A DNA stretch of 25,850 nt from a virus: the IMG/VR virus record IMGVR_UViG_3300037189_013396, positions 1 to 25,850 of that record. One strand, given 5' to 3'. The position numbers were made by a program, and so were the translations under genes. A model generated the notes under the pieces. It was not told the DNA's origin. It did not search any database and saw only the letters and a program-made list of their open reading frames with translations. Of the stretch, positions 2,349-21,864 are shown piece by piece. Position 1 is the stretch's first letter, and each line of letters opens with the position of its first letter.

Positions 2349-2354
2349 TAAATA
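2349..2354 (+). promoter_or_regulatory. TAAATA late-promoter-like motif before the HNH gene
   Basis: TAAATA, then ATATT, then ATG at 2360: five bases from motif to start. This is one of nine copies with this spacing in the window, and it resembles the T4 late promoter core TATAAATA. Confidence 0.5.
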
Positions 2355-2359
2355 ATATT

Positions 2360-2920
2360 ATGAATGATGACATTGAAAAACAAATAAAAATAATTGAAGA
2401 TACTTATCCATCTCCACAAAAAGCACAACGAGAATTATTTAAGATAGGAGTTAGGCGATGTTGTAATTGTAAAGATGTGAAATATTTAGAAGATTTTGGA
2501 AAAAATAAACATTTATACAGAAGACGATGTAGAAAATGCGAAAATGAAATTGGCAAGAAGAGGTGGCACGACAGCAGAAAAACACAAACGTTGGAAGAGG
2601 CTATACGTTATAAATTCTATCAAGCAAAATATCGAAGTGGTCAAAAAGGGAGAGCGTTTAATTTAACAGTTGAAGACGTTGTAAATCAATGGAATAAACA
2701 GCAAGGATATTGTTATTACACCGGATTGAAAATGAAAGTGACCCCCAACAACCCTGATCATTTTTCTATTGATAGAATCGATTCCAAAATGGGCTACGAA
2801 CCTGATAACATTGTGATATGCACCCATGTTATAAATTTAATGAAAAAAGATTTAAACAAAGATGATTTTATAAACTATTGCATGTTGGTTGTCAGTAACT
2901 GGTCGAAGAACCCGAAATAA
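2360..2920 (+). CDS. HNH homing endonuclease, 186 aa
   Basis: This is a free-standing mobile endonuclease expected to cut a specific DNA site and promote its own spread. A zinc-ribbon-like pair, C34-x2-C37 and C57-x2-C60, lies near the N-terminus. The HNH (His-Me finger) core follows: YCYYTGLKM at about 117-125, SIDRIDSKMGY at 136-146, then DNIVICTHVINLMKK, where N150 and N159 are the expected conserved asparagines. The Asp of IDRID stands at the usual position of the first core residues in this subfamily. It runs opposite to all its neighbours, as insertions often do, and has its own TAAATA motif. Its end is 17 bases from the stop of the convergent 2938-3324 gene. Confidence 0.88.
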   Translation: MNDDIEKQIKIIEDTYPSPQKAQRELFKIGVRRCCNCKDVKYLEDFGKNKHLYRRRCRKCENEIGKKRWHDSRKTQTLEEAIRYKFYQAKYRSGQKGRAFNLTVEDVVNQWNKQQGYCYYTGLKMKVTPNNPDHFSIDRIDSKMGYEPDNIVICTHVINLMKKDLNKDDFINYCMLVVSNWSKNPK

Positions 2921-2937
2921 CATTCATTACTTTGCTT

Positions 2938-3324
2938 TTAATCGATTTTGCCGTATTTTTCTTGGAGTTGTTTCAGCAGTTGCATTTCCTTTTGCTTGGT
3001 CAGTTCTGCTTGTTCAGCTTCATACAGTTTGTTCGCAGTGTTCCATTTCTTTAATTGGCTCTTGTATTGCCTATAATCATCGTCATACTTTGCTTTCTCC
3101 TGCTCGTAATTAGGATTTTTAAAGTTTGGCTTTGCAGACTTCAACAACTTCATAGCAAATGGATCATCATAATCATAATCTCTTGCGAGATAATAATCAT
3201 AATCAGGATCAAAATTCAATTTTTCATCTTCGCTGATTCTTTCTACAGAAATCACCTCGCCGCCTTTGTAATATTCAAGAGGTTTGATTGGTCGTGTGAT
3301 AAGAATGTATTCCTTTGATTGCAT
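2938..3324 (-). CDS. Hypothetical phage protein with C-terminal coiled coil, 128 aa
   Basis: I do not recognise this protein. It starts MQSKEYILITRPIKPLEYYK, has a Tyr/Asp-rich segment with an internal echo (DYDYYLARDYDYDD at about 41-54), and ends in a long charged helix (NKLYEAEQAELTKQKEMQLL) likely to form a coiled coil. The DNA under the Tyr/Asp segment repeats AATCATAATC. The leader AATAAAATAAA lies three bases before its ATG, as in the 1360-2010 gene. Confidence 0.7.
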   Translation of the reverse strand: MQSKEYILITRPIKPLEYYKGGEVISVERISEDEKLNFDPDYDYYLARDYDYDDPFAMKLLKSAKPNFKNPNYEQEKAKYDDDYRQYKSQLKKWNTANKLYEAEQAELTKQKEMQLLKQLQEKYGKID

Positions 3325-3346
3325 ATGTTTATTTTATTACTGCTCC

Positions 3347-3604
3347 TTACTTCTTGATCTTAATCTTGCTTACATCAACACCAAACTTACTTGCAATATC
3401 TTCCAATGTCAATTCTAATGCTGGTGCTGTAAGAGCATTGAACTGTTCTTCTGATAGACGTTTACCATCGACACACCATTCTTTATATCCATCAGCATAT
3501 TCAACTGCTGGTCCATCTAGGCGGTGACAGATAGTCATCGCTCGGTCTTTGTAGTAAATCTTATGACCACATTTGTTAATGTATATGTATTGTTCTTGTT
3601 GCAT
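3347..3604 (-). CDS. Small protein with a HRLDGPA...DGxKEW repeat-type motif, 85 aa
   Basis: The central part reads ICHRLDGPAVEYADGYKEWC followed by VDGKRLSEEQF. This HRxxGPAxExxxGxxxWxxxGxxH-type unit, reminiscent of MORN-like motifs, occurs singly or in tandem in many phage and bacterial proteins; its molecular role is not established. Residues 1-20 form a short beta-rich lead-in (YIYINKCGHKIYYKD), and the C-terminus is a small helical part ending in KIKIKK. The ATG overlaps the region right after the TAA of the 3606-4259 gene (TAATATG), so co-translation is likely. Confidence 0.75.
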   Translation of the reverse strand: MQQEQYIYINKCGHKIYYKDRAMTICHRLDGPAVEYADGYKEWCVDGKRLSEEQFNALTAPALELTLEDIASKFGVDVSKIKIKK

Positions 3605-3605
3605 A

Positions 3606-4259
3606 TTAAGCTTGTTTTTTGTAATTATGTTTTTCTGCTTCTTCTGGACTCAGCGTAGCATACCATCCACCCCTTTTACAAAGACTGCCTCTGTTTCCAG
3701 TATATTGACAAATAGTAGATGATAGAAATTCAGCGAAGCTAATCATACCAGCAACTTTTTTATCACCACCGTCATAGTAAACTCGGAGTTGTCCGAACTT
3801 TTCTTTGATCTGATCAATCGTAACAGGTGGAACTGGTGAGATATCCCACTTGTAGTATGGATAGAAAATCTTTCTGATTTTATTCAGACAATTCCAAATA
3901 CCCATTTTGAGTTTATTTTCTTCTTGAAACTTAGCTCTTTGTGCAGCGGTGAGGAAGATTTGTTTCTTATATGGGTTGAGTCTATTGTAGATAGGATCGA
4001 AGACCTTTGAGAAAATCTTCTTATAGAACCATTCTTTAACAATTCGAATCGGCTTGTATTTCTCCGTATACACTTGCTGCATGCAGCAATATGATGACAG
4101 AGCTTTACACAAATCATCCACAAGATTCTCCCAACCTACAGGACACCAAATACCACATGATGGCTGAATTGGATTGCCCTGCTCATCTTTAGGAAAGAGA
4201 GTGGGATACCGTTTAATTAAATATTCATCAAATGGAACGCTTGAGTCTTTCAATTTCAT
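3606..4259 (-). CDS. Phage protein of the 'KFGxLRxYYDG' family, 217 aa
   Basis: Two conserved blocks identify a family common in phages and prophages without known function: an N-terminal GIWCPVGWENLVDDLCKAL (about 36-54) and a C-terminal IKEKFGQLRVYYDGGD, followed by a segment that in typical members is a CxxC...C zinc site. Here only STICQYTGNRGSLCKRGGWY remains and the second CxxC partner is not obvious, so the metal site looks degenerate. The middle is basic and aromatic. The first 32 bases overlap the end of the 4228-4497 gene in another frame. Confidence 0.75.
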   Translation of the reverse strand: MKLKDSSVPFDEYLIKRYPTLFPKDEQGNPIQPSCGIWCPVGWENLVDDLCKALSSYCCMQQVYTEKYKPIRIVKEWFYKKIFSKVFDPIYNRLNPYKKQIFLTAAQRAKFQEENKLKMGIWNCLNKIRKIFYPYYKWDISPVPPVTIDQIKEKFGQLRVYYDGGDKKVAGMISFAEFLSSTICQYTGNRGSLCKRGGWYATLSPEEAEKHNYKKQA

Positions 4260-4497
4260 CTTTTAGTTTTTGGTTTTCGGTTGCGAAGAATGCATTTGCA
4301 TTTCTGAGATTTTCTAAATCTTTAGGAAGACATGGAAGCTTACTAAAGCTGACAAGGTGATCACAATAATCGGAGAGATGTTTGTAATCTGAATATTTTA
4401 CATAATCACCTTCCGGGTGAGTATAAAGTCCAGCTGATGTGATTTTATAAGCATGGGAGAAATTCACCCGGAAGATGTATCGATCAACGGTAGACAT
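4228..4497 (-). CDS. Hypothetical phage protein, 89 aa
   Basis: I do not recognise this protein. It begins MSTVDRYIFRVNFSHAYKIT, has a small mixed domain, and ends with a likely coiled coil (LENLRNANAFFATENQKLKD and following). It overlaps the start of the 3606-4259 gene by 32 bases. Its ATG lies directly after the TAA of the 4499-5023 gene (TAATATG), so it is probably translated with it. Confidence 0.65.
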   Translation of the reverse strand: MSTVDRYIFRVNFSHAYKITSAGLYTHPEGDYVKYSDYKHLSDYCDHLVSFSKLPCLPKDLENLRNANAFFATENQKLKDEIERLKRSI

Positions 4498-4498
4498 A

Positions 4499-5023
4499 TT
4501 AGATCGCCCTGTAGTCGGTAACAGTCTTTTGGTATGGCTCGACCTGATGAATACAATCCAATTCTAGCTCACTACCGTTGTAGGATTCATAATATCCCGG
4601 AACCATCCAGAACGTTTCATTGATGTCATTCTGAGTGACCTTGAGAACAACATAATGTTCTGATCCATCACCTTCGCCGCCGCCATGACGATAGTGATTT
4701 TCAATCTTCCAACCATCACCAAATTTCAACTCTACATCGTCATGAGCGAGTCCATACACACTAGAAGTGTATTTAAGATTCTTGAAGAATGGCAGATTGG
4801 CTTGATTTTCTGACATTTGGATAACACTAATGAGGCTCTTCTCGGTAGGAGTCCAACCATTGAACTTATTCTTGGATGCGATTTCAGCCTTGAGTTGTTC
4901 CTGTCGAGCGATTTCATCCTTCAATGCCTTTTCCTGCTTCTTCTTGACAGCTTCAAGATTGGCAAGCTGTTGATTGAGGGATTCGATAGTGGTGTCGATT
5001 GATGCTGGAGTATTAGTTTTCAT
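4499..5023 (-). CDS. Hypothetical protein with N-terminal coiled coil, 174 aa
   Basis: From the ATG at 5023 the protein starts MKTNTPASIDTTIESLNQQL and continues as a long coiled coil to about residue 52 (KALKDEIARQEQLKAEIASK). A globular part of about 120 residues follows, with a Gly/His-rich turn HYRHGGGEGDGSEHY and FWMVPGYYESYNGSELELD. I do not recognise the family. A longer frame reaches a TTG at 5068, but that would overlap the upstream gene by 56 bases; the ATG gives an 11-base overlap and is preferred. Function unknown. Confidence 0.7.
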   Translation of the reverse strand: MKTNTPASIDTTIESLNQQLANLEAVKKKQEKALKDEIARQEQLKAEIASKNKFNGWTPTEKSLISVIQMSENQANLPFFKNLKYTSSVYGLAHDDVELKFGDGWKIENHYRHGGGEGDGSEHYVVLKVTQNDINETFWMVPGYYESYNGSELELDCIHQVEPYQKTVTDYRAI

Positions 5024-5795
5024 ATTTTCGTAGTTTGTTTTGAGATTCTGCTTGTTGAAATTTTTCAATGTAGTTTTTGTCTTTGCATCCAGTTAGATGC
5101 TGGAAATTATCCAGAATGAAGAACTTGAACCACCCGGATGACATCGTGGTTGCAAGTTTCTTGAGACTTTTTCCATATGCAGCAGCATGACCGCATGTGA
5201 AATTAGAAGGAATGTGATAACGCTCAAGAGCAGTTACCCAAATTTCTTCTTTTGTCATGAGTATTTTATCATCAAATGAAAGTTTGTCAAATCCTGATTG
5301 AGAACAATTTACACCTTCGACAATCAGTTTTTCATAAAGCGGTTTGTCGTAAACGGCAACAACTTCATGGATATCATCGTGGATGTATTTACGAGGAACT
5401 GCATCCTCGAAGAATGTAGTGCTCGTCTTACCTTTGAGACTTGCCCACTTCTTACCGTGAACGCCAATCCAATCTTTAACAAGACGGTAATACAATTCTT
5501 TGTCAACCACGCATCCCCGCTTTTTCAAAAAGAGAATGTCTGCCATGGTTTTCTCCCAGTGAATATCCCAACCCGAATGTGATTGCTTAATCGTTAGCAG
5601 AAAATTAGGATCGACGTAAATATTACTCTTGTTGTTATCAAGAATGTATTGAAAGCTGTCAACCCAATAATGCTGCGTCTCCCTAGACATATGAGGAGTT
5701 TTTGAAATAACATCAAGGTCTTTGGGATTTCGTTTGAAATCCGGGAACCACGCTTGCATTGCGTGTGAACCGATGATTAGTGTTTCTCTAGGCAT
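5013..5795 (-). CDS. Nucleotidyltransferase-like phage protein, 260 aa
   Basis: The N-terminus reads TLIIGSHAMQAWFPDFKRNP then KDLDVISKTP. A glycine-serine pair after a hydrophobic strand, followed about 18 residues later by a D-x-D-type strand (DLDV), is the signature of the nucleotidyltransferase (pol-beta-like) fold; similar large-phage proteins are known. A third catalytic acid may lie at WDIHWEKTMADILFL (about 76-90), but I cannot prove it. The C-terminal half is helical with several His and Cys (CGHAAAYGKSLKKL). The substrate is unknown: nucleic-acid ends, protein or small molecule are all possible. A CACTG-containing spacer precedes the ATG. Confidence 0.6.
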   Translation of the reverse strand: MPRETLIIGSHAMQAWFPDFKRNPKDLDVISKTPHMSRETQHYWVDSFQYILDNNKSNIYVDPNFLLTIKQSHSGWDIHWEKTMADILFLKKRGCVVDKELYYRLVKDWIGVHGKKWASLKGKTSTTFFEDAVPRKYIHDDIHEVVAVYDKPLYEKLIVEGVNCSQSGFDKLSFDDKILMTKEEIWVTALERYHIPSNFTCGHAAAYGKSLKKLATTMSSGWFKFFILDNFQHLTGCKDKNYIEKFQQAESQNKLRKYEN

Positions 5796-5821
5796 GTTAG
5801 TAGAATACGTCAGTGTTTAAT

Positions 5822-6211
5822 TCATGTCCAGAGGTAGCCTGAATACTTGACGATTGTAGTCATAGCGTCTAAATCACGACGATCTAGCTCTTGTAAATCT
5901 TTATAACAATCCCAATTTTCTTCAAGTTTTGGACGTTCATTCTTGATGTAGTTGTAAACTCTTCGAAGTTCTCCGTCAACAGCTTTTACATTATCAACAT
6001 ATTCCTGCTTAATGTAGCCCGCTTGAAGATCTTCAGAGAAATCAAATTGATCCTTAAGTCCTTCTTCATTCTCAACATAATCGATGAGAGTTTCAAACAG
6101 AACAAGCTGAATCAATTCAGGCTTATCCATCCAATGATTAGGAATCTTCTTGGTCAACCAGCGTTGCTTAGGGCTGAAGAATTCTTTAATTGATAACCAG
6201 ATGCTTTTCAT
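5822..6211 (-). CDS. Hypothetical phage protein, 129 aa
   Basis: The protein begins MKSIWLSIKEFFSPKQRWLT with the block LTKKIPNHWMDKPELIQLVLF and then ETLIDYVENEEGLKD. Proteins with a similar Trp-rich start and an acidic helical segment occur in large myoviruses, but I know of no function. It is mostly helical and probably cytoplasmic. Its start overlaps the end of the 6186-6389 gene by 26 bases. Confidence 0.65.
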   Translation of the reverse strand: MKSIWLSIKEFFSPKQRWLTKKIPNHWMDKPELIQLVLFETLIDYVENEEGLKDQFDFSEDLQAGYIKQEYVDNVKAVDGELRRVYNYIKNERPKLEENWDCYKDLQELDRRDLDAMTTIVKYSGYLWT

Positions 6212-6389
6212 TTTTGTATTTGAATGATATTTCGATGTTGTTGTTGCTCATTGATTTGATCCATTCGATGTGTGGTTCAAGCACACTAAATGGTTCACCA
6301 CCTGCTTCCAATATGGCAATTGCCATGCTCTTGAAGTTATTGAAAAATAGTTGGTCTGCGTCAGTATCTAATAGGTTATTGTCACACAT
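6186..6389 (-). CDS. Hypothetical phage protein, 67 aa, first gene after a sigma70 promoter
   Basis: A short frame from ATG 6389 (MCDNNLLDTDADQLFFNNFK) with an amphipathic middle (MAIAILEAGGEPFSVLEPHI). I do not recognise it. It is the first gene downstream of the strong promoter at 6408-6436, and its stop region overlaps the start of the 5822-6211 gene. The predicted leader is only about a dozen bases and has no Shine-Dalgarno sequence. Confidence 0.6.
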   Translation of the reverse strand: MCDNNLLDTDADQLFFNNFKSMAIAILEAGGEPFSVLEPHIEWIKSMSNNNIEISFKYKNEKHLVIN

Positions 6390-6407
6390 AAAAAAGAGAA
6401 TGGAGAT

Positions 6408-6436
6408 ATCATACCCCCATTCCCTTGATTTGTCAA
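6408..6436 (-). promoter_or_regulatory. Sigma70-type promoter, near consensus
   Basis: On the minus strand TTGACA (6431-6436), a 17-base spacer, then TATGAT (6408-6413). The -35 box is perfect, the -10 box has one mismatch and the spacer is optimal. The likely RNA start is near 6401, about 12 bases before the ATG at 6389. It would drive the 6186-6389 gene and those after it. Confidence 0.8.
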
Positions 6437-6446
6437 GCTTTGTTTA

Positions 6447-6524: not shown

Positions 6525-6536
6525 GATGTTTGAAGG

Positions 6537-7091
6537 TTATGGCAGTGTTTTATTTTTATGGCGCTCAATAAGAAACTCTCTCACATCCTCTTCAAATGGA
6601 TCTTCAGGAAAATCAACACCGTAGTAATCTTGAATTTTGAGATAATTTGTCTCGTAGTTATCATCAATACCGATGAATTGTATCTTACCTTGATTTTCCC
6701 GAGGTATAAGATTGTCAATCAAAACGTTATTTGGATTGGCGTATTCATGTGGAGTGATTGCACCATATCTACCACCATACGCTGTAGAAACCCAAACTCT
6801 TGCAGCTTCTTGATCTTCACGCGCAAAGATGTCCTTTGGATCAAAATCCCAACCAGCAAGTTCGTTGATTTTTTCAGCATAATCTCTGGTTGCTGTGGTG
6901 AGAATATGCACGTTTTCCTTGCCGACCAATTCACGACTGAAACGAATCAGCGCATAACTGCATGGACGAATGATTGTGTGGTATGTAAAGCCACCATCAC
7001 CAAGAGAAAACTGAACATGGTTTTGGTTTGGTTCATCCCAAAGTGTATGTATCATAGTCTCGTCGATATCAAAATAGATTTTGTTTATCAT
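6537..7091 (-). CDS. HAD-superfamily phosphatase (NIF/FCP-like), 184 aa
   Basis: Motif I is IYFDIDETMIHTLWDE (nucleophile D8, acid/base D10, a DxDxT). Motif II is around HILTTATRDYAEKINELAGW, and the acidic motif IV is probably near NVLIDNLIPRENQ or FIGIDDNYETN. A RPCSYALI segment after motif I recalls NIF/FCP-like phosphatases. The enzyme should hydrolyse a phosphomonoester; the substrate is not clear. T4 polynucleotide kinase uses the same fold for its 3'-phosphatase, so a nucleic acid end is one candidate. It directly follows the cREC-type gene, with a 12-base gap. Confidence 0.82.
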   Translation of the reverse strand: MINKIYFDIDETMIHTLWDEPNQNHVQFSLGDGGFTYHTIIRPCSYALIRFSRELVGKENVHILTTATRDYAEKINELAGWDFDPKDIFAREDQEAARVWVSTAYGGRYGAITPHEYANPNNVLIDNLIPRENQGKIQFIGIDDNYETNYLKIQDYYGVDFPEDPFEEDVREFLIERHKNKTLP

Positions 7092-7103
7092 AGTAATTTA
7101 GTT

Positions 7104-7553: not shown

Positions 7554-7564
7554 TTGTTTAGTAG

Positions 7565-7708: not shown

Positions 7709-7710
7709 GA

Positions 7711-8582: not shown

Positions 8583-8610
8583 GAAATCTCTCAAGTCTTG
8601 AGCGTGTTGT

Positions 8611-9361: not shown

Positions 9362-9367
9362 TAAATA
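9362..9367 (+). promoter_or_regulatory. TAAATA late-promoter-like motif before the GIY-YIG gene
   Basis: TAAATA, then CATGT, then ATG at 9373: a five-base spacing, the same as at the tail genes. It also decides the start codon, since the frame itself is open further upstream without an ATG. Confidence 0.5.
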
Positions 9368-9372: not shown

Positions 9373-10242
9373 ATGGCTAAAAGACCACAAATTCGAGGAC
9401 TCTACAAAATAGAAAGTCAACAAACTAAAAGAGTTTATATCGGGATTGCAAATTCTATAGATCGAAGATGGCAATATCACAAAAACTCGCTGGCATCTCA
9501 GAAACACAAAAATATTATTCTACAGAATCATGTTAATAAATATGGATTTGAAGACTTAATTTTCAGCATCCTAGAGATTTGTGAGAATTTAACTTTTGAA
9601 GAATTAAAGCTTAAAGAAATTGTCACTATTAAAAAATTTAAATCTAATGGAACTCTGTTATTCAATTTAACCGATGGTGGAGATGGAACTCTAGGACAGG
9701 GAGTGATACCATGTAAAATTAAAAATATCTATACTGGTGAAATTTTAACCTTTTCGAGTATAACAAATGCATCTGAGTATATAGATGTTGATAGGTCATC
9801 TATGGCAAAATTATTAAAAGGTAAAAAGAAACAAATGAAAGGATGGTGTTCAGCAGAGTTGGAATATGATCAATCTGAATTAAACAGAAAAAATAGAGTG
9901 TTATATCATAAAGACTATGGAGAGGTTAAAGTTGGGGAAAATATGTGCGCATTTGCCAGAAAATATAATTTAAATGAAAAAGTCATACACCGTCTATTTA
10001 CAACGCCAGATAGATACAAAAGCCACAAAGGGTGGACGACCTACGATCCAAAAATTGAAAAAAGAATTCATATGAAACATAGAAGGGTCGCTTGTTATGA
10101 TAAGCAGAAAAATTTGATCAAAGAATTTGATTTTATTTCCGAAGCTGCTAGAGAATATGATTGTGACTCATCCTCTATAAATCAAGCTTTAGCGAAACCT
10201 TTCATGAGAACGTCTATGAAATTGTATTGGAGTTACTTATAG
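9373..10242 (+). CDS. GIY-YIG homing endonuclease with C-terminal DNA-binding repeats, 289 aa
   Basis: This is a free-standing mobile endonuclease. The GIY-YIG nuclease domain fills residues 1-105: GLY at 9-11, YIG at 22-24, the catalytic arginine in DRRW (R31), KYG (Y57), the metal-binding glutamate probably E82 (LKEIVTI), and FNLTDGGDG at 97-105. Behind it are three NUMOD/IENR-like helix-turn-helix units that should give target specificity: TFSSITNASEYIDVDRSSMA (126-145), CAFARKYNLNEKVIHRLF (192-209) and FDFISEAAREYDCDSSSIN (252-270), each followed by a GW or YW block. It runs against its neighbours, is AT-richer than them, and ends overlapping the stop of the PTH2 gene. The duplicated PTH2 tail suggests its target lies there. 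Confidence 0.92.
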   Translation: MAKRPQIRGLYKIESQQTKRVYIGIANSIDRRWQYHKNSLASQKHKNIILQNHVNKYGFEDLIFSILEICENLTFEELKLKEIVTIKKFKSNGTLLFNLTDGGDGTLGQGVIPCKIKNIYTGEILTFSSITNASEYIDVDRSSMAKLLKGKKKQMKGWCSAELEYDQSELNRKNRVLYHKDYGEVKVGENMCAFARKYNLNEKVIHRLFTTPDRYKSHKGWTTYDPKIEKRIHMKHRRVACYDKQKNLIKEFDFISEAAREYDCDSSSINQALAKPFMRTSMKLYWSYL

Positions 10243-11026: not shown

Positions 11027-11464
11027 TCAATTTTTAATTTTAGCATTTATAATTCGACAGTCTTTCGTCTCAAATGAGTATGTTGGCGTTCCTTCATATC
11101 GAAGTTCTCCGTCAATTTCGATACCAATATTTGGCCTCTTGTATCTAAGAATACCAAGATCGCTATCGTAAAAACCGATAAGCTCTTCAGGATCAAGTTC
11201 AGGTGCGTCCCATTCAAAAGAATGCATGTTGAAGAATACTTCACTTGGACCATCATCGGGAAATTCTTCCAACCAAACGTAAGTGGTTGAAGAGTTCAGT
11301 TCGACTTCACGAACTGTATATTCTTGACCCTTCTCTAGCAAGTTAAACTCAGCTTGAGCGGTTTGTGGAATGAACGCGAACTTAGCAGCTTCTCGAAACT
11401 TGATCTTTTGACCGACCTTCGGAAGCCCGTGAAGGATTTTGTGTTTGTCGAATAGTTTGCCCAT
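11027..11464 (-). CDS. Hypothetical phage protein, 145 aa
   Basis: The N-terminus is MGKLFDKHKILHGLPKVGQK. The middle reads LEKGQEYTVREVELNSSTTY then VWLEEFPDDGPSEVFFNMHS, a beta-rich arrangement that recurs in small phage proteins. The end is acidic then basic (FETKDCRIINAKIKN). No function known. A spacer with AAAACACTG precedes the ATG, as at the 1360-2010 and 5013-5795 genes. Confidence 0.7.
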   Translation of the reverse strand: MGKLFDKHKILHGLPKVGQKIKFREAAKFAFIPQTAQAEFNLLEKGQEYTVREVELNSSTTYVWLEEFPDDGPSEVFFNMHSFEWDAPELDPEELIGFYDSDLGILRYKRPNIGIEIDGELRYEGTPTYSFETKDCRIINAKIKN

Positions 11465-11490
11465 GGAACGTAAAGTAGGTCAGTGTTTTA

Positions 11491-12929: not shown

Positions 12930-12935
12930 TAAATA
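12930..12935 (+). promoter_or_regulatory. TAAATA late-promoter-like motif before the gp16-like gene
   Basis: TAAATA, then ACACT, then ATG at 12941: a five-base spacing. TTGTCA lies 17 bases upstream (12907-12912) and may act as a -35 box. Confidence 0.5.
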
Positions 12936-12940: not shown

Positions 12941-13447
12941 ATGGAATACTTTGCAGACGATGACGATTTAGATGCGGAACTTGACGACGTTGCCAATGAC
13001 ATCATCAACCAACTCAAAAATCAAACAAAAAGCTTGAAAAATGTAGAACGTGAATATCCTGAACTCACTCCAGAACAGGTTGATGCGTTTGTGCTTAAAT
13101 ACGGCTCCATTGCGGTCATAGAGCTTGCTGACGCTCTTAAGAGTCAGACAGAAATAGTTCGCCAAACAGGAGACGACAAGCAGGTTGTAGCCCTTGCAGA
13201 GCTTGCTAAATCATTCCAAGGAAACCTTGAAGTATTGCAGAAAAGAAACATCGCTGACAATAAAAATCAAACTGCGATCAAGATCAAAGAGATGGACATT
13301 GAAAGCAAGAAAGAAACTCAAGAACGCGAAGAAAATCATCGCATTACAATGAGCCGTGAGGAACTTTTCAAAATCATGATTCAGCAAAAATTGGCTGATA
13401 AGCAGCCAAAAGATGCAAAACCATCAGACGACGTTATTGACATTTGA
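12941..13447 (+). CDS. Putative terminase small subunit (T4 gp16-like), 168 aa
   Basis: The protein has an acidic N-terminus (MEYFADDDDLDAELDDVAND), a central pair of helices (YGSIAVIELADALKSQTEIV and ALAELAKSFQGNLEVLQKRN) joined by RQTGDDKQ, a long charged helix, and an acidic end (KPSDDVIDI). The length (T4 gp16 is 164) and the helix-turn-helix centre with LAKSFQGNLEVLQK resemble gp16 of T4-type phages, which recognises DNA and regulates the packaging ATPase. The match is by pattern only. Unlike T4, no large terminase gene follows; the gene faces the tail operon and its last 24 bases overlap the end of the 13424-14380 gene. The start is fixed by the ATG after TAAATA. Confidence 0.45.
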   Translation: MEYFADDDDLDAELDDVANDIINQLKNQTKSLKNVEREYPELTPEQVDAFVLKYGSIAVIELADALKSQTEIVRQTGDDKQVVALAELAKSFQGNLEVLQKRNIADNKNQTAIKIKEMDIESKKETQEREENHRITMSREELFKIMIQQKLADKQPKDAKPSDDVIDI

Positions 13448-14388: not shown

Positions 14389-15789
14389 TTATATCACAGT
14401 ATCAGAATACAAATTTTGTTTTCTGGTATCAAGCTCTTTATTTCTTTCTAAATTCAATTTCAATATATTTTTACTCTTTGTTGCGGTCGGACCAACATAC
14501 GTTTTACAACACATCATTTGATTTTGATAAAGATCTCCTACAAAAACGTGGCGAAGTTCGCTCACAAACCATCGGCCTAATAATTTTTCATCACTTCTAA
14601 ATATCTCAGCGCCTCTAGTAGAATAGATGTCCATAAATTTTCCGCTAGTTCGCTTAGAGTCTCCGATATTGCTAAATGTTGATTGTAGATTATAAAATAC
14701 CAACGCTGATGTCATTTCAGCTTCTACTAATTTAACACTATCTTCGATAGGATATGGAAGTCTGAAATGCACGAATTTCTTCTTATTACTCTCGTTTAAA
14801 ACAAGGAATGGCAACACTTCACCTCCGAGAGATCTAAACACATCAACAAATTGAGTTTTCCATTTCGGTTTCAATTTATAGATATCAACTTTTTTAATTT
14901 TTTGTTCTCCTGAAATTGGATCGTATCCATGCACCAATCGACTAACAAAGAATTCATTGGTTACTGAGTAAAAAGGAGTTGAATAACTGATATTAGAGGT
15001 GGGGTCAGGCTTGTTCCTATTAACTTCACCACCAGTAGGGGGGTTGTTTGGGTTATTTGTATCAGCGCCTCCATACGACAAATCGCCCAAGGCAAATGCG
15101 TCCAGTAGATTTTCTGGTTTTTGATTGTCTTGGAATATTTTTGTAAGAGAAGTGAACGAGAATTGTTTGGTGATATGATCGTAATTTATAAATGCTTTTG
15201 TATGAATGTCCCCGGACTTCATGTAAAAGATACGCAAGAAATGATAAAGAAGATCGAGATATCTCCAGTTTACAGGAGGTATATAAGTTAAAGTGAAATC
15301 ACCAGATTCCCATTTTCCAGAATTTACATAACTACCACCCAATAACTCCACAAACAATTCTTTAATTAAATCACCGACTTTACCTTCGTATTTTTTATTG
15401 TATGGAATTTGTTCCATAAATGGTATAGCTTTTTCATCTACCAACTTAAAAGTTTTAATATTTGAAGACCGAGTAACTGGATTGCCATGATTCGACTCAT
15501 CTATAATAGCAAACGTGTTGTCGTATTTACGTTCATCTGGATCTGTCTTCAATTTGAAGTAAATTCTAATACGATCTCTACCATCACCTCTTAAGAAAAA
15601 CTTATCGTTTTCTATGAAGTCATATGGATTTGCAATACTTATGGTGCCACTTTCGAATGGTTCGAAAAAGTTATCAACTAATGTCATTCCTCGAATAGCT
15701 GATTTTGTGAATTCAACTTCTAAGCCATCGGCATTTTTAAGTTTAAATTCACATTCATAATCAAGTCCATTTATTTTAAATGTTTCCAT
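14389..15789 (-). CDS. Putative baseplate hub protein (gp27/gpD-like), 466 aa
   Basis: The layout fits the central hub of a contractile tail: an N-terminal beta domain (IRGMTLVDNFFEPFESGTIS and IRIYFKLKTDPDERKYDNTF), the typical helix VGDLIKELFVELLGGSYV, a domain following it (WRYLDLLYHFLRIFYMKSGD), and a C-terminal strand pair ending LGRWFVSELRHVFVGDLYQN, like the closing strands of hub proteins. A Pro/Asn-rich loop sits near residue 250. It joins the tube to the spike. It follows the gp53-like gene, with TAA overlapping ATG. I cannot tell gp27 from a fused variant. Confidence 0.6.
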   Translation of the reverse strand: METFKINGLDYECEFKLKNADGLEVEFTKSAIRGMTLVDNFFEPFESGTISIANPYDFIENDKFFLRGDGRDRIRIYFKLKTDPDERKYDNTFAIIDESNHGNPVTRSSNIKTFKLVDEKAIPFMEQIPYNKKYEGKVGDLIKELFVELLGGSYVNSGKWESGDFTLTYIPPVNWRYLDLLYHFLRIFYMKSGDIHTKAFINYDHITKQFSFTSLTKIFQDNQKPENLLDAFALGDLSYGGADTNNPNNPPTGGEVNRNKPDPTSNISYSTPFYSVTNEFFVSRLVHGYDPISGEQKIKKVDIYKLKPKWKTQFVDVFRSLGGEVLPFLVLNESNKKKFVHFRLPYPIEDSVKLVEAEMTSALVFYNLQSTFSNIGDSKRTSGKFMDIYSTRGAEIFRSDEKLLGRWFVSELRHVFVGDLYQNQMMCCKTYVGPTATKSKNILKLNLERNKELDTRKQNLYSDTVI

Positions 15790-16187
15790 TAATAATGTCG
15801 TCCTCCGAAAATAGTAGAATTGGTTATATCAGAATAAATCAATGTGGTGACACCGGGATCGATGTAAGACAATTGAACTCCCCCATTTACATAAAATGGG
15901 GCTCCGTCAAACTTATCTTTATTTAGGAGATAAAGTATCCACCAACTTTGAATATCGCCATAAATTTTGTATGATATCGTGGTTAGCGCCATACGAGTTT
16001 TGACATCGTAAAATCCGAGGTAATCGCTATCAATTACTGGAAAATCAATCTTCTTCAATGTATTGTATGTGTAGAAATCCTTATCATCGAGTGATTGGGT
16101 AAACACTTTGAAAATACGTTCATAGCTTTTGATATTCAAAGCTTCTAATGCTGAGATTTGGTCCCTATATTGTCCTACGTCGATCAT
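15789..16187 (-). CDS. Baseplate protein, gp53-like with LysM-type fold, 132 aa
   Basis: The C-terminal half reads TTISYKIYGDIQSWWILYLL then NKDKFDGAPFYVNGGVQLSY, matching the LysM-like block YxIYGDxxxWWxIxxxN...G..L of T4 gp53 and related baseplate wedge or hub-adaptor proteins. The N-terminus (QYRDQISALEALNIKSYERI) is helical. T4 gp53 is longer (about 196 aa). It lies between the gp48/gp54-like and hub genes, as expected for a baseplate part. Its ATG follows TAAATA by five bases. Confidence 0.65.
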   Translation of the reverse strand: MIDVGQYRDQISALEALNIKSYERIFKVFTQSLDDKDFYTYNTLKKIDFPVIDSDYLGFYDVKTRMALTTISYKIYGDIQSWWILYLLNKDKFDGAPFYVNGGVQLSYIDPGVTTLIYSDITNSTIFGGRHY

Positions 16188-16192
16188 TATAT

Positions 16193-16198
16193 TATTTA
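16193..16198 (-). promoter_or_regulatory. TAAATA motif before the gp53-like gene
   Basis: TAAATA, then five bases (ATATA), then the ATG at 16187. The motif includes the TAA stop of the gene upstream. Confidence 0.45.
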
Positions 16199-17092
16199 TT
16201 GTTGAGGAGCGGCACCAGCAAATCCACCACCAGTTGTATTTGATAGATAATCGATGAAGTTGGAAGGTTCGATTGTGAGTGGAGTGAATGCCATGGTAAT
16301 GCCATAACCTTCGGGAACGATTTTAGCTCCAATCATTTTACGTGCTCCCAAGAACTGAATAGACAATGCGCTGCAATATGCCCAACGCATGTAACGCCAG
16401 CCCTTTAATGTAACTTCATATATTCTAGGTGGGGTCATTGCAACTGATGTTTTTCTCGTTGGTCTATTATGCTTCATGAATTCTGTGATGAATTTATAGT
16501 TAAGTTCTACAGAATCAGCATTTATTGTGTTAGAAAGAACGAAGTTAACTTCTAATGGACCTTCAGAAGCTGACGTAAAGTCATAAAATTTAGGAGTTTC
16601 AATATATGATCCAGCATTGCCATCCCCATCTAATTTTGATAAAGTAGATCCAATAGAGGCGAAATCGTATCCACTATTTTTTATAAAAGATCCCAACATT
16701 CCAGCACCAGCAGCTGCCGTTTGAGCTAAATCTACAGCGGTTCCTCCAAGTGATTGTATTCCAGCATCTAATGCTTCTCCTACACCACCGCTTCCTCCAA
16801 AACCATTTTTAAAAGTATCACCAAATGAATTGGTAAAGCTTCTTATATTATCTCCGAAAAATGGAAATAAGTAATAATCATTTGTTGCTGTTGTGGCATC
16901 ACTATACAGCTTATCATAAAATTTCAACGGATCTTGTTCTGTTACTACCGTAACGTAATTTCTAAACCTGTTAATAGTTAGATTTTTATCCAAATCATAC
17001 GCTTTAACAAATAACTGCGGAGTATTATAACGCAAAGGGGAGCCCTTTGGCATACTTGTCCAGTCATAATCATTGATAATATCGTAAGCCAT
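16196..17092 (-). CDS. Putative tube-baseplate junction protein (gp48/gp54-like), 298 aa
   Basis: The N-terminus is MAYDIINDYDWTSMPKGSPL. A low-complexity middle rich in Gly and Ala (GFGGSGGVGEALDAGIQSLG and following) could be a flexible or tube-facing segment. The C-terminal third reads YEVTLKGWRYMRWAYCSALS, IQFLGARKMIGAKIVPEGYG and ITMAFTPLTIEPSNFIDY, a tube-like strand pattern seen in proteins that cap the baseplate and start the tube (gp48, gp54 and relatives). The place after the tape measure fits. The identity as gp48 or gp54 is not settled. Confidence 0.5.
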   Translation of the reverse strand: MAYDIINDYDWTSMPKGSPLRYNTPQLFVKAYDLDKNLTINRFRNYVTVVTEQDPLKFYDKLYSDATTATNDYYLFPFFGDNIRSFTNSFGDTFKNGFGGSGGVGEALDAGIQSLGGTAVDLAQTAAAGAGMLGSFIKNSGYDFASIGSTLSKLDGDGNAGSYIETPKFYDFTSASEGPLEVNFVLSNTINADSVELNYKFITEFMKHNRPTRKTSVAMTPPRIYEVTLKGWRYMRWAYCSALSIQFLGARKMIGAKIVPEGYGITMAFTPLTIEPSNFIDYLSNTTGGGFAGAAPQQ

Positions 17093-17097
17093 GTTAA

Positions 17098-17103
17098 TAT
17101 TTA
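17098..17103 (-). promoter_or_regulatory. TAAATA motif before the gp48/gp54-like gene
   Basis: TAAATA, five bases (TTAAC), then the ATG at 17092. The first three bases are the stop of the tape measure gene. Confidence 0.45.
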
Positions 17104-19146
17104 GGCACCCAATCTATACACACTTGTGAAATAACCATCTCGATTATCATCAAATTCAATTATGTCTTTTGTTGGCATTGGATTTATTTGAGGTATATTT
17201 GGAATAGCCGCTGTTTGTGCAGAGGAGTTCATTCTCTTAAGCTCATTCAAGCTCATATTACCTATTGTAATAAGATTATTCAATGCGGTTAAGTGCTTTT
17301 GAGACAAAGATATCATTAAGCCCAAACGTTCAGTTTGAACAGAAGATATGTTTGCCATTCTTTGACCGACCTTATCATTACCGTTTTGAATGGCTTGTGC
17401 ATTATTAACAGGTGCTTCGATAGCTGGCTTCAATGAATCTAAGGTGCCAGATGCAAATGATTTTATTTGTTCAACCTTAGTTGATACAGTGTTGGAGATA
17501 CCGCTCCAAACATTTTTGAAAAAGTTTTTTGATTTCTCAAAACCAGAACTCACAGAATCTTTTAAATTTGATACCATTGTCGATGTTTGCATGGAAGAGG
17601 CGGCGTCCTCAGACACAATACCCAGCCACTCCAACGGCTTTCTTAAAACCATTGGTAAGTCTTTCATTTTAGAACGAACAAAATCTTTAACTTTACCAAT
17701 CCAGTTAGTGTTAGTATTTCCAATTGATGTGTCAGTTGATTCAGTAGTTGAGAATAAAGACGACAACATATTGTAACCTTGTATAAGCATATCCATACCC
17801 GGAATGCTACGTGCTACGTATTCAAGACCCTTTAATATATCACCACTTGAAAATGAATCCCAAGCTTTTGAGAGATATTTAAAAGATGAAATAATTGGAA
17901 TCTTTTCGCCGTTTGACCATATCCAATCGCCAATCGACTTAGCCCATGATGATATGGAGGAAGCGGCAGCTGCTATATTAAGATTCGGTTCTTCTGGTTT
18001 GGCATCTGGATTGAGATAAGCCATCAATGTATCAATACCTCGTATTATCAAGCCGCCGCCCGGTATGATAGCGACTATACCATAAGCGAGATATTTGAGA
18101 GCTTCATTAAGATTACCACTTTTAAACGAATCCCACGACATTCCCAGATATTTAAATGTTCCCAATAATGGAATATCTTTAGCGTTTTCCCACAAGAAAC
18201 TTCCAATCGATTTAACCATATCTCCCAATATATCCAATTTAGAAAGTTTCGGCTTTCCTTCGCCTTGATCTGATTTATAATCGAGAAAAGCGTTAAGCGC
18301 ATCGAGACCGAGTTGTATAGGTATTACAAATGCTGCTGCTCCGGGAACTAAGCTCAACAGTCCAACAAGAGCACTTACAGTATCAATAACACCACCGACA
18401 ATATCACCGTCTTTAAAACGTATATACGCAAACCCTAATGATATAAGAGTTCCAATAAGTGGAATTTTTGTTAAAACCTTGGATAGCGGTTTGAGCACTT
18501 TAACGGCCATCTTTCCAAGAAATCCTTTTTCAAGTTTGGCCAAAACTTTACCACCCAAACCACCAGAAAATTCTCCTATAAATTTTGTAAACTTCCCTCC
18601 AAGTTTTCCAAAAAGTTTCTCAGGTAATTCTTTAAGCAATGTAAATACAGTTGAAACGACTCTTTTCAATATCGCTATCCCGCCTTCTATTCCTATTCTG
18701 GATAGAATTTTTAATGCTCCTCTAAAAGGACCATCATTCATCAAACCACTCACAAGAGCGGCTATGCCCCCAACAATTAACATCAACCCAGTTCCAAGAC
18801 CAGACAGTAATGACATTTCTTCTTTGGGCTTTTGAGATATCGGTGTGGTTGCTTTGGTTTGTGATTTGGCAATACTACCTACGATTGTTTTCTCAGCAAC
18901 ATCCGGTTTTTTCGCATTTTGTATTTCAACAAATACGTCACTGAATATTTTTGCAAACTCAGTAGTTTTGTTTTTTTCTTGAGATGATAATGTATTTTTC
19001 GAAGCTTCTCTATTACCAATCGATGAATTAATAATATTGGTTTCTGCCAATTTATCTTGTTTTGGCATACCTTTATCACCTTCCATGGTTTGTAAAAAAC
19101 CAAGAATTCGATTTAAAGTAGGTAATATTTCAACATTTGATTCCAC
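17101..19146 (-). CDS. Tape measure protein with three internal repeats, 681 aa
   Basis: The largest complete tail gene here, placed between chaperone-like and baseplate genes, is expected to set tail length (T4 gp29 analogue, 590 aa). The N-terminus is polar and helical; residues 112-140 are hydrophobic (LGTGLMLIVGGIAALVSGLM). Three related hydrophobic units follow at about 227-292, 323-380 and 415-466: KIPLIGTLISLGFAYIRFKD, DIPLLGTFKYLGMSWDSFKS and KIPIISSFKYLSKAWDSFSS, each then leading to an IPG segment and a closing helix. The C-terminus has further helices and ends DGYFTSVYRLGA. The start is GTG at 19146, six bases after TAAATA; an ATG two bases upstream is out of frame. Function is inferred from position and character. 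Confidence 0.72.
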   Translation of the reverse strand: MESNVEILPTLNRILGFLQTMEGDKGMPKQDKLAETNIINSSIGNREASKNTLSSQEKNKTTEFAKIFSDVFVEIQNAKKPDVAEKTIVGSIAKSQTKATTPISQKPKEEMSLLSGLGTGLMLIVGGIAALVSGLMNDGPFRGALKILSRIGIEGGIAILKRVVSTVFTLLKELPEKLFGKLGGKFTKFIGEFSGGLGGKVLAKLEKGFLGKMAVKVLKPLSKVLTKIPLIGTLISLGFAYIRFKDGDIVGGVIDTVSALVGLLSLVPGAAAFVIPIQLGLDALNAFLDYKSDQGEGKPKLSKLDILGDMVKSIGSFLWENAKDIPLLGTFKYLGMSWDSFKSGNLNEALKYLAYGIVAIIPGGGLIIRGIDTLMAYLNPDAKPEEPNLNIAAAASSISSWAKSIGDWIWSNGEKIPIISSFKYLSKAWDSFSSGDILKGLEYVARSIPGMDMLIQGYNMLSSLFSTTESTDTSIGNTNTNWIGKVKDFVRSKMKDLPMVLRKPLEWLGIVSEDAASSMQTSTMVSNLKDSVSSGFEKSKNFFKNVWSGISNTVSTKVEQIKSFASGTLDSLKPAIEAPVNNAQAIQNGNDKVGQRMANISSVQTERLGLMISLSQKHLTALNNLITIGNMSLNELKRMNSSAQTAAIPNIPQINPMPTKDIIEFDDNRDGYFTSVYRLGA
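17785..18468 (-). repeat. Three degenerate repeats inside the tape measure gene
   Basis: The units correspond to residues about 227-292, 301-380 and 397-466. Units 2 and 3 are the most alike, with SIGSFLWENAKDIPLLGTFK against SIGDWIWSNGEKIPIISSFK, and their DNA is also similar. Unit 1 is more diverged. They suggest tandem duplication of a 70-95 residue module. Confidence 0.65.
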
Positions 19147-19152
19147 ATTACT

Positions 19153-19158
19153 TATTTA
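19153..19158 (-). promoter_or_regulatory. TAAATA motif before the tape measure gene
   Basis: TAAATA, six bases (AGTAAT), then GTG at 19146. It lies just after the TGA of the upstream gene. Confidence 0.45.
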
Positions 19159-19161
19159 GAA

Positions 19162-19899
19162 TCATGAATCAAAGAAAGCGACATCAACATCAATTAAACG
19201 ATCAGAATCCTTAATACGAACAGTAAGAGCATCGTTTTCAAGAGTTTTGTAAGCTTGAATGAATGCAGTAATTTCTTTATTCAAGACAAGGGGTAGATTA
19301 TTCACGATCTTAACTCTATCGCGAACAGCTAAATTACTAAAGTTAATTGAATCTTCTCCAATCGTCACGTTTTTGATGTATTTGACAATTTCAAATGTGT
19401 AAATATCTCCAACGCTTTTACCAATATCTTTATCAGCATCTTTCTTTAAAATATCGACGCAAGATGTTATAATTTGATTTTCTGCTACCAATGTAGGAAT
19501 TTCCAATTCGAGGCTAATAATCCCTTGGATTTTTTTTGTTGTAGTGGGCTTGACCGACTTCAATTTTTCAATAACTTCAGACAACACATCGTATTTCTCA
19601 TCGTCAAATTTAACAACCGTTCCAACGCTATTAGAGCGCAATTGAAGGGAGATTAAAAGTCTATCAACGACCGTTAGGTTTTTATCTCCTGTGTTTTCCA
19701 AAATTGCATCGTTGACTACTTTTTGAAACTTGAGAGCCCCTACAATACCTTCTGTAATTGTAGAAATGATTTCCTTTTGTTGTTTGAATGTCAAAGGCTC
19801 GCATTCAATTTGTTTGCCAGTAGATATTACATCAACCTTTAATTTATCAGATTTAATTTCGTTGATTTTTTCAAGAAATGACTTAACGTTGTCGTCCAT
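19162..19899 (-). CDS. Baseplate hub assembly chaperone, T4 gp26-like, 245 aa
   Basis: The N-terminal part CEPLTFKQQKEIISTITEGI then VGALKFQKVVNDAILEN and LTVVDRLLISLQLRSNSVG follows the pattern of the gp26 baseplate-hub family (a 'PLTxKQxK' start, an Asp-Arg 'VDR' and a LQLR block). The C-terminus has VRDRVKIVNNLPLVLNKEIT and ends in VDVAFFDS. In T4, gp26 helps build the hub and is not a main virion part. Its place just before the tape measure is where tail chaperones of other phages sit. A related protein is encoded next to it. Confidence 0.6.
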   Translation of the reverse strand: MDDNVKSFLEKINEIKSDKLKVDVISTGKQIECEPLTFKQQKEIISTITEGIVGALKFQKVVNDAILENTGDKNLTVVDRLLISLQLRSNSVGTVVKFDDEKYDVLSEVIEKLKSVKPTTTKKIQGIISLELEIPTLVAENQIITSCVDILKKDADKDIGKSVGDIYTFEIVKYIKNVTIGEDSINFSNLAVRDRVKIVNNLPLVLNKEITAFIQAYKTLENDALTVRIKDSDRLIDVDVAFFDS

Positions 19900-19905
19900 A
19901 TTTGC

Positions 19906-19911
19906 TATTTA
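19906..19911 (-). promoter_or_regulatory. TAAATA motif before the gp26-like gene
   Basis: AGG-TAAATA, six bases (GCAAAT), then ATG at 19899. The AGG could serve as a weak ribosome binding site here. Confidence 0.45.
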
Positions 19912-19921
19912 CCTGAAACTT

Positions 19922-20647
19922 TTAGAAATCAAGTCTTGGAGTGTTATTTTGTTGACTTTGCATTTCATCGTTGTATTTCTTCATGTAGAAGCTGATATCT
20001 TTAATGTCAGAGTCCATTAAAATATTTCCATCGATGCGCTTGGATAAGTAAAAAATAACATCTTGGAAATATTCTTTTGTGTAATTAGAAAACAATCCTT
20101 TTAAGAAAATATAAGGTTGGTTTGTGTAAAAATTAATTGTTATCGAACTTAACAGCGGATTATCAAGTTTGTAAACTTTAGATTTGTCTTTTGCAATATG
20201 TTCTGCTATCTTAGAGAATACCTTGGCTGGTAATTTATTGATAACCAATTGTTTATCAGATTTAGATAACGATGATAAATTTAAAGATATATCAGAAAAC
20301 TTAACTACTTTCAATAAGTTATAAATAGGCATTACATCATTTGTATTGAACGTGAATTCTTCTGGTATCCCCAATTCATATGTGTTATCATTATCTTTTA
20401 TAATAACAATATCATTTAAATTTTGAGACAGTTGATTTACAAGATAAGATAATTGAATTGTTATTTCTTTACCTTCTAATGAAAATGTTATAGTATCGCT
20501 AACATGATATTCCCATGCATTTAAAATAGATTTAAATTTTTCTTGAACGGTATCTCCTTCAAATTCATTCAAAAATTCATAGAATTTATCATCTCTTCCC
20601 GTTTCTATAAATGAGGACACTTCTTTTAATTTGCGGAATGATAACAT
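19922..20647 (-). CDS. Putative tail/hub assembly chaperone, paralogue of the gp26-like protein, 241 aa
   Basis: The protein starts MLSFRKLKEVSSFIETGRDD. Its middle, VMPIYNLLKVVKFSDISLNL followed by SSLSKSDKQLVINKLPAKVF, resembles the C-terminal NFSNLAVRDRVKIVNNLPLV block of its neighbour at 19162-19899, suggesting two related chaperones side by side. The rest is helical with a beta part near residues 55-95 (ITFSLEGKEITIQLSYLV). The ATG overlaps the stop of the second tube gene (TAATG), so translation is probably coupled. Assignment is by position and resemblance only. Confidence 0.45.
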   Translation of the reverse strand: MLSFRKLKEVSSFIETGRDDKFYEFLNEFEGDTVQEKFKSILNAWEYHVSDTITFSLEGKEITIQLSYLVNQLSQNLNDIVIIKDNDNTYELGIPEEFTFNTNDVMPIYNLLKVVKFSDISLNLSSLSKSDKQLVINKLPAKVFSKIAEHIAKDKSKVYKLDNPLLSSITINFYTNQPYIFLKGLFSNYTKEYFQDVIFYLSKRIDGNILMDSDIKDISFYMKKYNDEMQSQQNNTPRLDF

Positions 20648-21267
20648 TATCCAACTATTGGTTCATAATTCAAACAAGCCATCGTTACACTTTTAATAGT
20701 GAACGTGGTATTATCATAATCTAAAGTATAACCCTCAACAGCAGTCGGATGAACACCATTAAGCTTATAACCTTTTCTGAAGTTTCCTTGGTTATCATAT
20801 TGCTTCACAACCATAGTGGCTTTTAAGCTAGGAGATCCATCTTCGATAAGTCCTTTTATACCTACTGCAATCATCCAAGGTCTAAAAAATTCATGCTCCA
20901 AATCTTGGGCAGTTTCCAAAATGTTAACAGAGAAAGTTCTGTTCAAGAAATTTATTCGATTATTCAGGGCATGAGTTGGTAAGAAACCACCTTTGCCTGT
21001 GCCAAAGTCCAACGCTACAAATTCTGATGATTCAGTTGGTAATGTTACACTCTGAGCAACTAAAATAGAGCCAGCATCACCTTTACTCATATCATTTGGC
21101 GTTGTATTAGCTTTCCATTTTTCACCTGCTTTTTCCAACTGATTATTTATCGCACCTGTTGTAACTCCATCAATTGAAATTGACCAAAAGACAGGGAGGC
21201 TCAAACAAAATTTGGCCTCCCTGCTAAATGATTGTAAGAAATCGTTGATTTGGATTGGCATTCCCAT
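20647..21267 (-). CDS. gp19-like tail tube protein, second copy, 206 aa
   Basis: The C-terminal half reads RTFSVNILETAQDLEHEFFR, PWMIAVGIKGLIEDG, VVKQYDNQGNFRKGYKLNGV, HPTAVEGYTLDYDN and FTIKSVTMACLNYE. This is the gp19 tube fold order (strand, helix, 'YDxxG' strand, 'GVxPxxVxGxxLDY' and final strands). The N-terminus MGMPIQINDFLQSFSREAKF is short and helical. With the neighbour at 21284-21853 it makes two tube-type proteins; one may form the main tube and the other an end or a minor ring. The ATG is six bases after TAAATA. A strong hairpin lies in codons 15-25. Confidence 0.65.
   Translation of the reverse strand: MGMPIQINDFLQSFSREAKFCLSLPVFWSISIDGVTTGAINNQLEKAGEKWKANTTPNDMSKGDAGSILVAQSVTLPTESSEFVALDFGTGKGGFLPTHALNNRINFLNRTFSVNILETAQDLEHEFFRPWMIAVGIKGLIEDGSPSLKATMVVKQYDNQGNFRKGYKLNGVHPTAVEGYTLDYDNTTFTIKSVTMACLNYEPIVG
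21192..21223 (-). other. GC-rich hairpin inside the second tube gene
   Basis: CAGGGAGGC (21192-21200) and GCCTCCCTG (21215-21223) form a perfect nine-base-pair stem in an AT-rich gene, about 50 bases into the coding sequence. On the transcribed strand the stem is followed by TCTTTT. The inner CAAA/TTTG can extend it with one bulge. Confidence 0.5.
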
Positions 21268-21273
21268 ATCAAC

Positions 21274-21279
21274 TATTTA
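21274..21279 (-). promoter_or_regulatory. TAAATA motif before the second tube gene
   Basis: CAC-TAAATA, six bases (GTTGAT), then ATG at 21267. Confidence 0.45.
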
Positions 21280-21283
21280 GTGA

Positions 21284-21853
21284 TCAACTGAAATCTTCAT
21301 ACCAGTGATAACTAAATGTAGCATCAAATGATACAATATCACCAGTTCCTTCTGCGATAGAATAAGTCAAAGCTCCGATATTACGAATGCCAACACCAAT
21401 CAACTTGATGGTCTTGACGATTTGAAGTGGTTGACCTGAAGTTGCATTGATATCTCTTGTGCAAGGAATTGCAAGAATATCAAGAGTGATGGAGCTTTCT
21501 GGTCCGGGCATACAAAGATTCGCAGTAGTGTCTTCGTTGTTGAACGCTACTCGGGAAGCGTTTTCAAGCTTTGTTCTAAGATCAAGGGCTTGGTCTGAAT
21601 AGAAGCTGATGGAATAACCTTCAGCACCTTCATAGGTAGCTCTACCTCCGATATTGAAAACTTGACCAGCATAACTGACAGTTTTGTTTTCAATTGTTCG
21701 GCCCGGTAAAGTTCCCGCCTTGGCATAAACAAGATCGGTTTCTCCCCTTAAGGAAAGACCCGGAAAGGAAATGTCTTTGATTCTAAATAGGAAGTCTCTG
21801 GCAAATTGCTTTTGGGAAGCTTGAGAGAAGAATGTTTCAATATTCGCTGGCAT
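21284..21853 (-). CDS. Tail tube protein, gp19-like, 189 aa
   Basis: The N-terminus is MPANIETFFSQASQKQFARD, then FLFRIKD and KAGTLPGRTIENKTVSYAGQ, VFNIGGRATYEGAEGYSISF, YSDQALDLRTKLENASRVAF. The order 'LPGRxI...xxYxGxxFxxxGxxxYEG...F..D...R..LE' is that of T4 gp19 tube proteins; length (T4: 163) fits. The tube would lie inside the sheath encoded upstream. In T4 the sheath and tube genes (18 and 19) are adjacent; here a homing endonuclease gene lies between. The ATG is five bases after TAAATA. Confidence 0.75.
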   Translation of the reverse strand: MPANIETFFSQASQKQFARDFLFRIKDISFPGLSLRGETDLVYAKAGTLPGRTIENKTVSYAGQVFNIGGRATYEGAEGYSISFYSDQALDLRTKLENASRVAFNNEDTTANLCMPGPESSITLDILAIPCTRDINATSGQPLQIVKTIKLIGVGIRNIGALTYSIAEGTGDIVSFDATFSYHWYEDFS

Positions 21854-21858
21854 ATAGT

Positions 21859-21864
21859 TATTTA
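21859..21864 (-). promoter_or_regulatory. TAAATA motif before the tube gene
   Basis: AAC-TAAATA, five bases (ACTAT), then ATG at 21853, in the 23-base gap behind the endonuclease gene. Confidence 0.5.

Follow-up and report, generated by a model that had tools for sequence, protein, structure and literature searches.

TAAATA boxes at a fixed distance before late genes of a T4-like phage group as probable gp55-type promoter cores for leaderless mRNA

The window analyzed here, the whole 25,850-nucleotide stretch of IMG/VR virus record IMGVR_UViG_3300037189_013396, is a 25.8-kb virus fragment. In its late half lie the genes for a tail sheath, a tape measure, baseplate proteins, and two tail-tube-like proteins. 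Its sheath and terminase share around 31-43% identity with those of the nearest named relatives, T4-like phages, which places the window in a deep, uncultured T4-like branch. The element in question is the hexamer TAAATA, which stands a few bases before a subset of the start codons on both strands (gene starts are computed).

The preliminary description of this stretch had reported nine copies of TAAATA 5-6 bases before start codons, and all nine were found at the places and spacings it gave. On the plus strand, putative late-promoter cores lie 5 bases before the ATG at 2360 (box 2349-2354) of an HNH/endonuclease VII-like gene (2360-2920; matches to PHROG 1035, 3322, and 3118, E down to 6.7e-25), the ATG at 9373 (box 9362-9367) of a GIY-YIG homing endonuclease gene (9373-10242; Pfam GIY-YIG and NUMOD1), and the ATG at 12941 (box 12930-12935) of a gene encoding a 168-amino-acid protein (12941-13447). 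The last gene had been called gp16-like, an assignment left without support since the protein has no significant family match. On the minus strand, the spacing is 5 bases before the ATG at 16187 of a baseplate wedge gene (15789-16187, phrog_7145; box 16193-16198), the ATG at 17092 of a gene for a 298-amino-acid tail-cluster protein (box 17098-17103), and the ATG at 21853 of the tail-tube gene (21284-21853, phrog_45, E 3.1e-14; box 21859-21864). It is 6 bases before the GTG at 19146 of the tape-measure gene (17101-19146, phrog_58; box 19153-19158), the ATG at 19899 of a baseplate hub-like gene (19162-19899, phrog_150; box 19906-19911), and the ATG at 21267 of a tail-tube-like gene (20647-21267, phrog_45; box 21274-21279). 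At two of the nine sites, those before 16187 and 17092, the TAA of the box also terminates the preceding gene; at the other seven it does not. Three homing-endonuclease-like genes are present in the window: the two named above (2360 and 9373, plus strand), which carry the motif as described earlier, and a third one to be added to that description, which lies at 21877-23580 on the minus strand between the tube and sheath genes and has no TAAATA at its start.

The boxes at spacing 5-6 thus precede 9 of the 39 listed starts in the window. In 3000 first-order Markov simulations of the upstream regions, no such site arose in 2733 runs, one in 254, and two in 13. The hexamer as such occurs about as often as expected by chance (37 copies versus 34.8), and it is its position that is enriched. 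The full T4 late octamer TATAAATA shows no enrichment in the window, with 2 copies versus 2.5 expected.

To follow the spacing beyond the window, the tube protein was used as a probe for relatives in IMG/VR, which returned 52 contigs in a direct search and 267 contigs in a profile search; no relative was found among GTDB genome contigs searched with the tube and terminase proteins. In one relative, the 69.8-kb contig G007 (locus L004), the tail cluster of the window recurs nearly unchanged, with an identical tube protein. The genome-wide test set comprised ten long related contigs (139-212 kb, one of 89 kb) plus G007. In the ten relatives, pooled over start codons that open frames of at least 80 codons, ATGs follow TAAATA at spacings of 4, 5, 6, 7, and 8 bases in 2, 364, 66, 25, and 22 cases, respectively, while 6.1 are expected per spacing. 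This clear peak at 5-6 bases bears out the genome-wide enrichment proposed as a check in the preliminary description. The distribution is one-sided, with spacing 4 at or below background, a peak at 5, and a decaying tail after it. GTG starts behave likewise (41 at spacing 5 and 12 at spacing 6), and TTG starts show no excess in these ten genomes. Anagrams of TAAATA give no comparable peak, and of its 18 single-base variants, a clear rise at spacing 5 is seen only for AAAATA (45 versus 16) and TAAGTA (31 versus 2). In just 6-23% of the sites in the relatives is the TAA an upstream stop codon. A pattern search gave, in three relatives for instance, 47, 43, and 45 sites per genome, versus 5, 4, and 0 for the reversed pattern.

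The position profile of 154 sites revealed no -35 signal, a segment of around 80% A+T after the box, and two preferred bases upstream of it, A/G followed by T/C/A. Every one of the 51 usable contigs from the first search keeps spacing 5 before the tube gene, despite diverged flanks (tube proteins 50-100% identical). Most of 38 further contigs from the second search also have spacing 5, and the box is nevertheless not rigidly tied to the start codon, because two sub-lineages, one of them a clonal group, keep it at 8 and 22 bases, respectively. At divergent late gene pairs, where as few as 27-57 bases separate the two start codons, both boxes lie in between, and leaders would hardly fit.

The box is confined to one functional class. 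With genes labeled by T4 proteins and cyanophage S-T4 proteins in two genome sets, it was found at 5-6 bases before 24 of 34 structural genes in the first set and 35 of 57 in the second (59 of 91 in total), and before none of the replication, recombination, and nucleotide genes (0 of 42 and 0 of 57, in total 0 of 99; P 3e-12 and 3e-14). A gp55-type sigma factor gene, the other check proposed, is present in relatives: homologues were identified in nine of them (G001, G002, G003, G006, and the second set of five genomes), and in relatives homologues of around 150 amino acids adjoin gp47, gp46, and uvsW homologues. The window carries none and is too short to contain the gene. The homologues at L063:17900-18343, L072:3030-3479, L081:14058-14507, and L086:9319-9777 end in acidic residues. 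A second, shorter gp55-like protein of 114 amino acids, possibly another sigma factor, is encoded inside the G001 tRNA array (L056:4657-4998).

Genes without TAAATA carry a different fixed box, which is lineage-specific: TTAATTAAAACCGA in G001, G002, and G004, TTAAAAACTAGA in G013-G019, and TTAAACACT(A/G) in G003, G007, and the window. A -10-like TAnnnT comes after it and ends exactly 6 bases before the ATG, an arrangement of TAnnnT seen in 41, 47, 29, and 20 genes of G001-G004, respectively, versus around 3-5 expected; in the counts for the smaller contigs G006 and G007, this class is weak or absent. Other early genes have TTGAC(A) ending around 28-31 bases upstream, the -35 position for transcription starting on the ATG. 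On the minus strand of the window, boxes of the same class lie at 2026-2035 (TTAAACACTG), upstream of gene 1360-2010 and with a -10-like TAAAAT at 2017-2022 exactly 6 bases before the ATG at 2010; at 5811-5820 (TTAAACACTG), upstream of gene 5013-5795 and with TATTCT at 5802-5807 exactly 6 bases before the ATG at 5795; and at 11481-11490 (TAAAACACTG), upstream of gene 11027-11464 and with TACTTT at 11472-11477, 7 bases before the ATG at 11464. Early genes appear leaderless too. The two promoter classes, of different geometry, point at the same +1 nucleotide, because the distance from the -10 element to +1 is 6 for sigma70 and the corresponding T4 late distance is 5. The early boxes (TTAATTAAAACCGA, TTAAAAACTAGA, TTAAACACTG) recur before many small genes at L057-L058 (G001:48000-68000) and L259-L306. 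Another box, AAAACACTG at 6543-6551 on the minus strand of the window, stands 18 bases ahead of an ATG whose frame has fewer than 60 codons, suggesting an unlisted small gene.

Shine-Dalgarno sites (AGGA/GGAG/GAGG) show no excess in the relatives, occurring before 0-17% of genes versus 2-13% in a control region, and before 0-7% of the late genes. The same count gives 45-62% across the comparison phages T4, Aeh1, HTVC008M, Mosig, and OspM_OC, and 32% in S-PM2. A Bacteroidota-type host was considered for this absence. The Bacteroidota promoter motif is TAnnTTTG, and the early promoters here look like TTGAC(A)/TAnnnT instead; no host is claimed.

The major capsid gene (gp23) departs from the late pattern. 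It has no box at 5-6 bases, and in G001 a TAAATA is located around 60 bases upstream. Its leader contains a small, conserved hairpin (AGG...CCT) in 71 of 80 loci, with a covarying stem, 29 distinct hairpins, and a mean stem of 5.2 pairs versus 3.6 for shuffled interiors; the five loci tested have no Rfam match. With a hairpin leader and no box at this spacing, the most abundant virion protein may be made from leadered mRNA. The hairpin, written ATGAGG...CCTGAA and lying around 60 bases upstream of the capsid gene at L307-L386 (e.g., L307:1433-1500), is a candidate structured RNA.

Collectively, TAAATA is very probably the core of a gp55-type late promoter that gives leaderless or near-leaderless late mRNA, as the preliminary description had proposed. 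The fixed position, the late-gene specificity, the gp55 genes of the relatives, and the controls against alternatives all support it. The position and conservation of the box, its late-gene specificity, the gp55 gene in relatives, and the lack of Shine-Dalgarno sites can be read from the genomes themselves; from them, we infer the RNA start point and its mode of translation. The first base of the T4 late octamer is at -13 and the box ends at -6 (PMC2988020), so five bases separate it from +1. This is the preferred spacing here, and spacing 5 would put +1 on the start codon. The one-sided distribution with its cliff between 4 and 5 is as expected if +1 falls on or before, and never inside, the start codon.

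In the mechanism we propose, the promoter would lack a -35 box and have TAAATA as its one sequence element, and most late genes would own a copy. A gp55-type holoenzyme would bind the box, open the A+T-rich segment, and initiate transcription. At spacing 5, the RNA would begin with the A (or G) that opens the start codon, and at spacings 6-8 it would begin one to three bases ahead of that codon. The resulting 5'-AUG mRNA would be translated without a leader or a Shine-Dalgarno site, presumably through recognition of the 5'-terminal AUG, a last step that would rest on the leaderless translation established in bacteria (PMC3160421). We also lean, with less confidence, toward a wider claim, that the whole infection programme runs on leaderless mRNA, early genes through a box with a -10 element at 6 bases and late genes through the gp55 box at 5, with the Shine-Dalgarno site abandoned and the capsid gene as the recognised exception.

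Chance, in the form of AT-rich DNA and TAA stop codons before close-packed genes, is one competing explanation, and the base composition of the genome and the two stop codons shared with boxes in the window speak for it. The counts already refute it: the simulations never exceeded two sites, no anagram gave a comparable peak, only two single-base variants rose clearly, few boxes in the relatives overlap stop codons, and the tube spacing was kept in every usable contig of the first search. This artefact, which the preliminary description had listed as an alternative, is thereby excluded, and we give it virtually no credence. A translation-initiation signal was the other alternative listed there. 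Genomes without Shine-Dalgarno sites need some other initiation cue, and a box held at a fixed position relative to the start codon could be one, such as an AU-rich enhancer or an S1-binding site replacing the Shine-Dalgarno site in a host without it, with the RNA starting further upstream. However, structural and replication-type genes both need translation, and the distribution of the box over them (59 of 91 versus 0 of 99) therefore excludes a general translation signal and favors a late promoter. The cliff at spacing 4, the match to the T4-family late box without a -35 element, and the lineages with the box at 8 or 22 bases argue against it as well, and we consider it highly improbable.

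A different possibility accepts the late promoter and holds that most protein comes from longer read-through transcripts, the leaderless ends being minor and the positioning a reflection of compact genomes. Late genes are indeed close-packed and co-oriented in the tail cluster, and coupled translation would explain the absence of Shine-Dalgarno sites. Yet compactness fails to explain one preferred spacing of exactly 5, the boxes at the divergent pairs have no co-directional upstream gene near them, and T4 and Aeh1 are compact too without showing the pattern. We therefore regard this explanation as unlikely.

Several points weigh against the leaderless late promoter or narrow it. In about one third of the recognised structural genes, no motif stands at 5-6 bases; gp23, with its structured leader, is among them. 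The gp55 homologues lack the hydrophobic C-terminal tail with which T4 gp55 binds the clamp. The clamp loader gp44 was recognised in all long genomes and the clamp gp45 in one only, and a replication-coupled part as in the T4 late system, with its gp33 and gp45, is at most a possibility here. The RNA 5' ends are placed by analogy with the T4 geometry, and, as tail genes are often closely packed, read-through RNA from upstream promoters would add leadered mRNA.

In open-access papers, we found none on leaderless late mRNA in T4-like phages. In bacteria, leaderless mRNA tends to be treated as a mode that a minority of cellular genes use. If the present interpretation is true, these phages would be an extreme case, in which the early and late promoters of two sigma systems are tuned to the base onto the start codon. 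The behavior of host ribosomes, and the way in which leaderless mRNA supports large-scale virion production, would become testable. The spacing would also offer gene callers a precise start-site rule across a widespread phage group, with at least 267 contigs in IMG/VR.

The relatives have further features of their own. They encode NAD-salvage (NAPRTase/NAMPT-like), PARP-domain, and poly(A) polymerase/CCA-type proteins (L096:4503-6107, L077:5493-6995, L059:9027-10259, and L056:18161-19660). The large tRNA arrays of G001 and G002 include a tRNA with the anticodon CTA (amber; L056:3941-4013 and L079:16159-16232). This prompted us to consider TAG recoding in both genomes, which appears unlikely: TAG is rare, yet mostly ends genes normally.

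T4 late promoters share with those described here the TAAATA core, the restriction to late structural genes, the missing -35 element, the A+T-rich melting segment, the use of both strands, and gp55, found here in relatives (PMC2988020). In contrast, the T4 consensus is TATAAATA, 59% of the called T4 genes have a Shine-Dalgarno site, TAAATA stands at spacing 5-6 before only 1 of 215 called genes, and the pattern search gives 10 examples versus 5 for the reversed pattern. The late box of Aeh1, (A/G)CTAAATA (quoted in PMC2988020), is the most similar to the present one, which has A/G at -13 and C or T at -12. The T4-type box of the preliminary description therefore holds for the core, and the flanking pair is closer to Aeh1 than to T4. 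Aeh1 itself differs in having the box at spacing 5-6 in 0 of 262 called genes and Shine-Dalgarno sites in 62%. The pattern search gave no clear excess over the reversed control in Aeh1, S-PM2, P-SSM2, S-T4, KVP40, Syn9, and most other isolates, and the leaderless layout is not how the tested T4-type phages (T4, Aeh1, KVP40, and cyanophages) are built. The pelagiphages HTVC008M (14 versus 4) and Mosig (11 versus 3) are intermediate. In the Pelagibacter phage HTVC008M (Kyanoviridae), 12 called genes, including the gp2, gp3, gp4, and gp25 homologues, have TAAATA exactly 5 bases before the ATG; these are a small share of its genes, around half of the others have a Shine-Dalgarno site, and there is no early leaderless class. 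HTVC008M (L104 and L129-L136) is a cultured, growable phage with the TAAATA-ATG geometry. Finally, bacterial leaderless genes of Actinobacteria and Deinococcus-Thermus lack a Shine-Dalgarno site and carry TAnnnT around 10-12 bases ahead of the start (PMC3160421, PMC12340547), which is the geometry of the early class here. Those genes are cellular and served by a housekeeping sigma factor, whereas in the present phages the layout would extend to a phage late sigma factor and apparently to all temporal classes.

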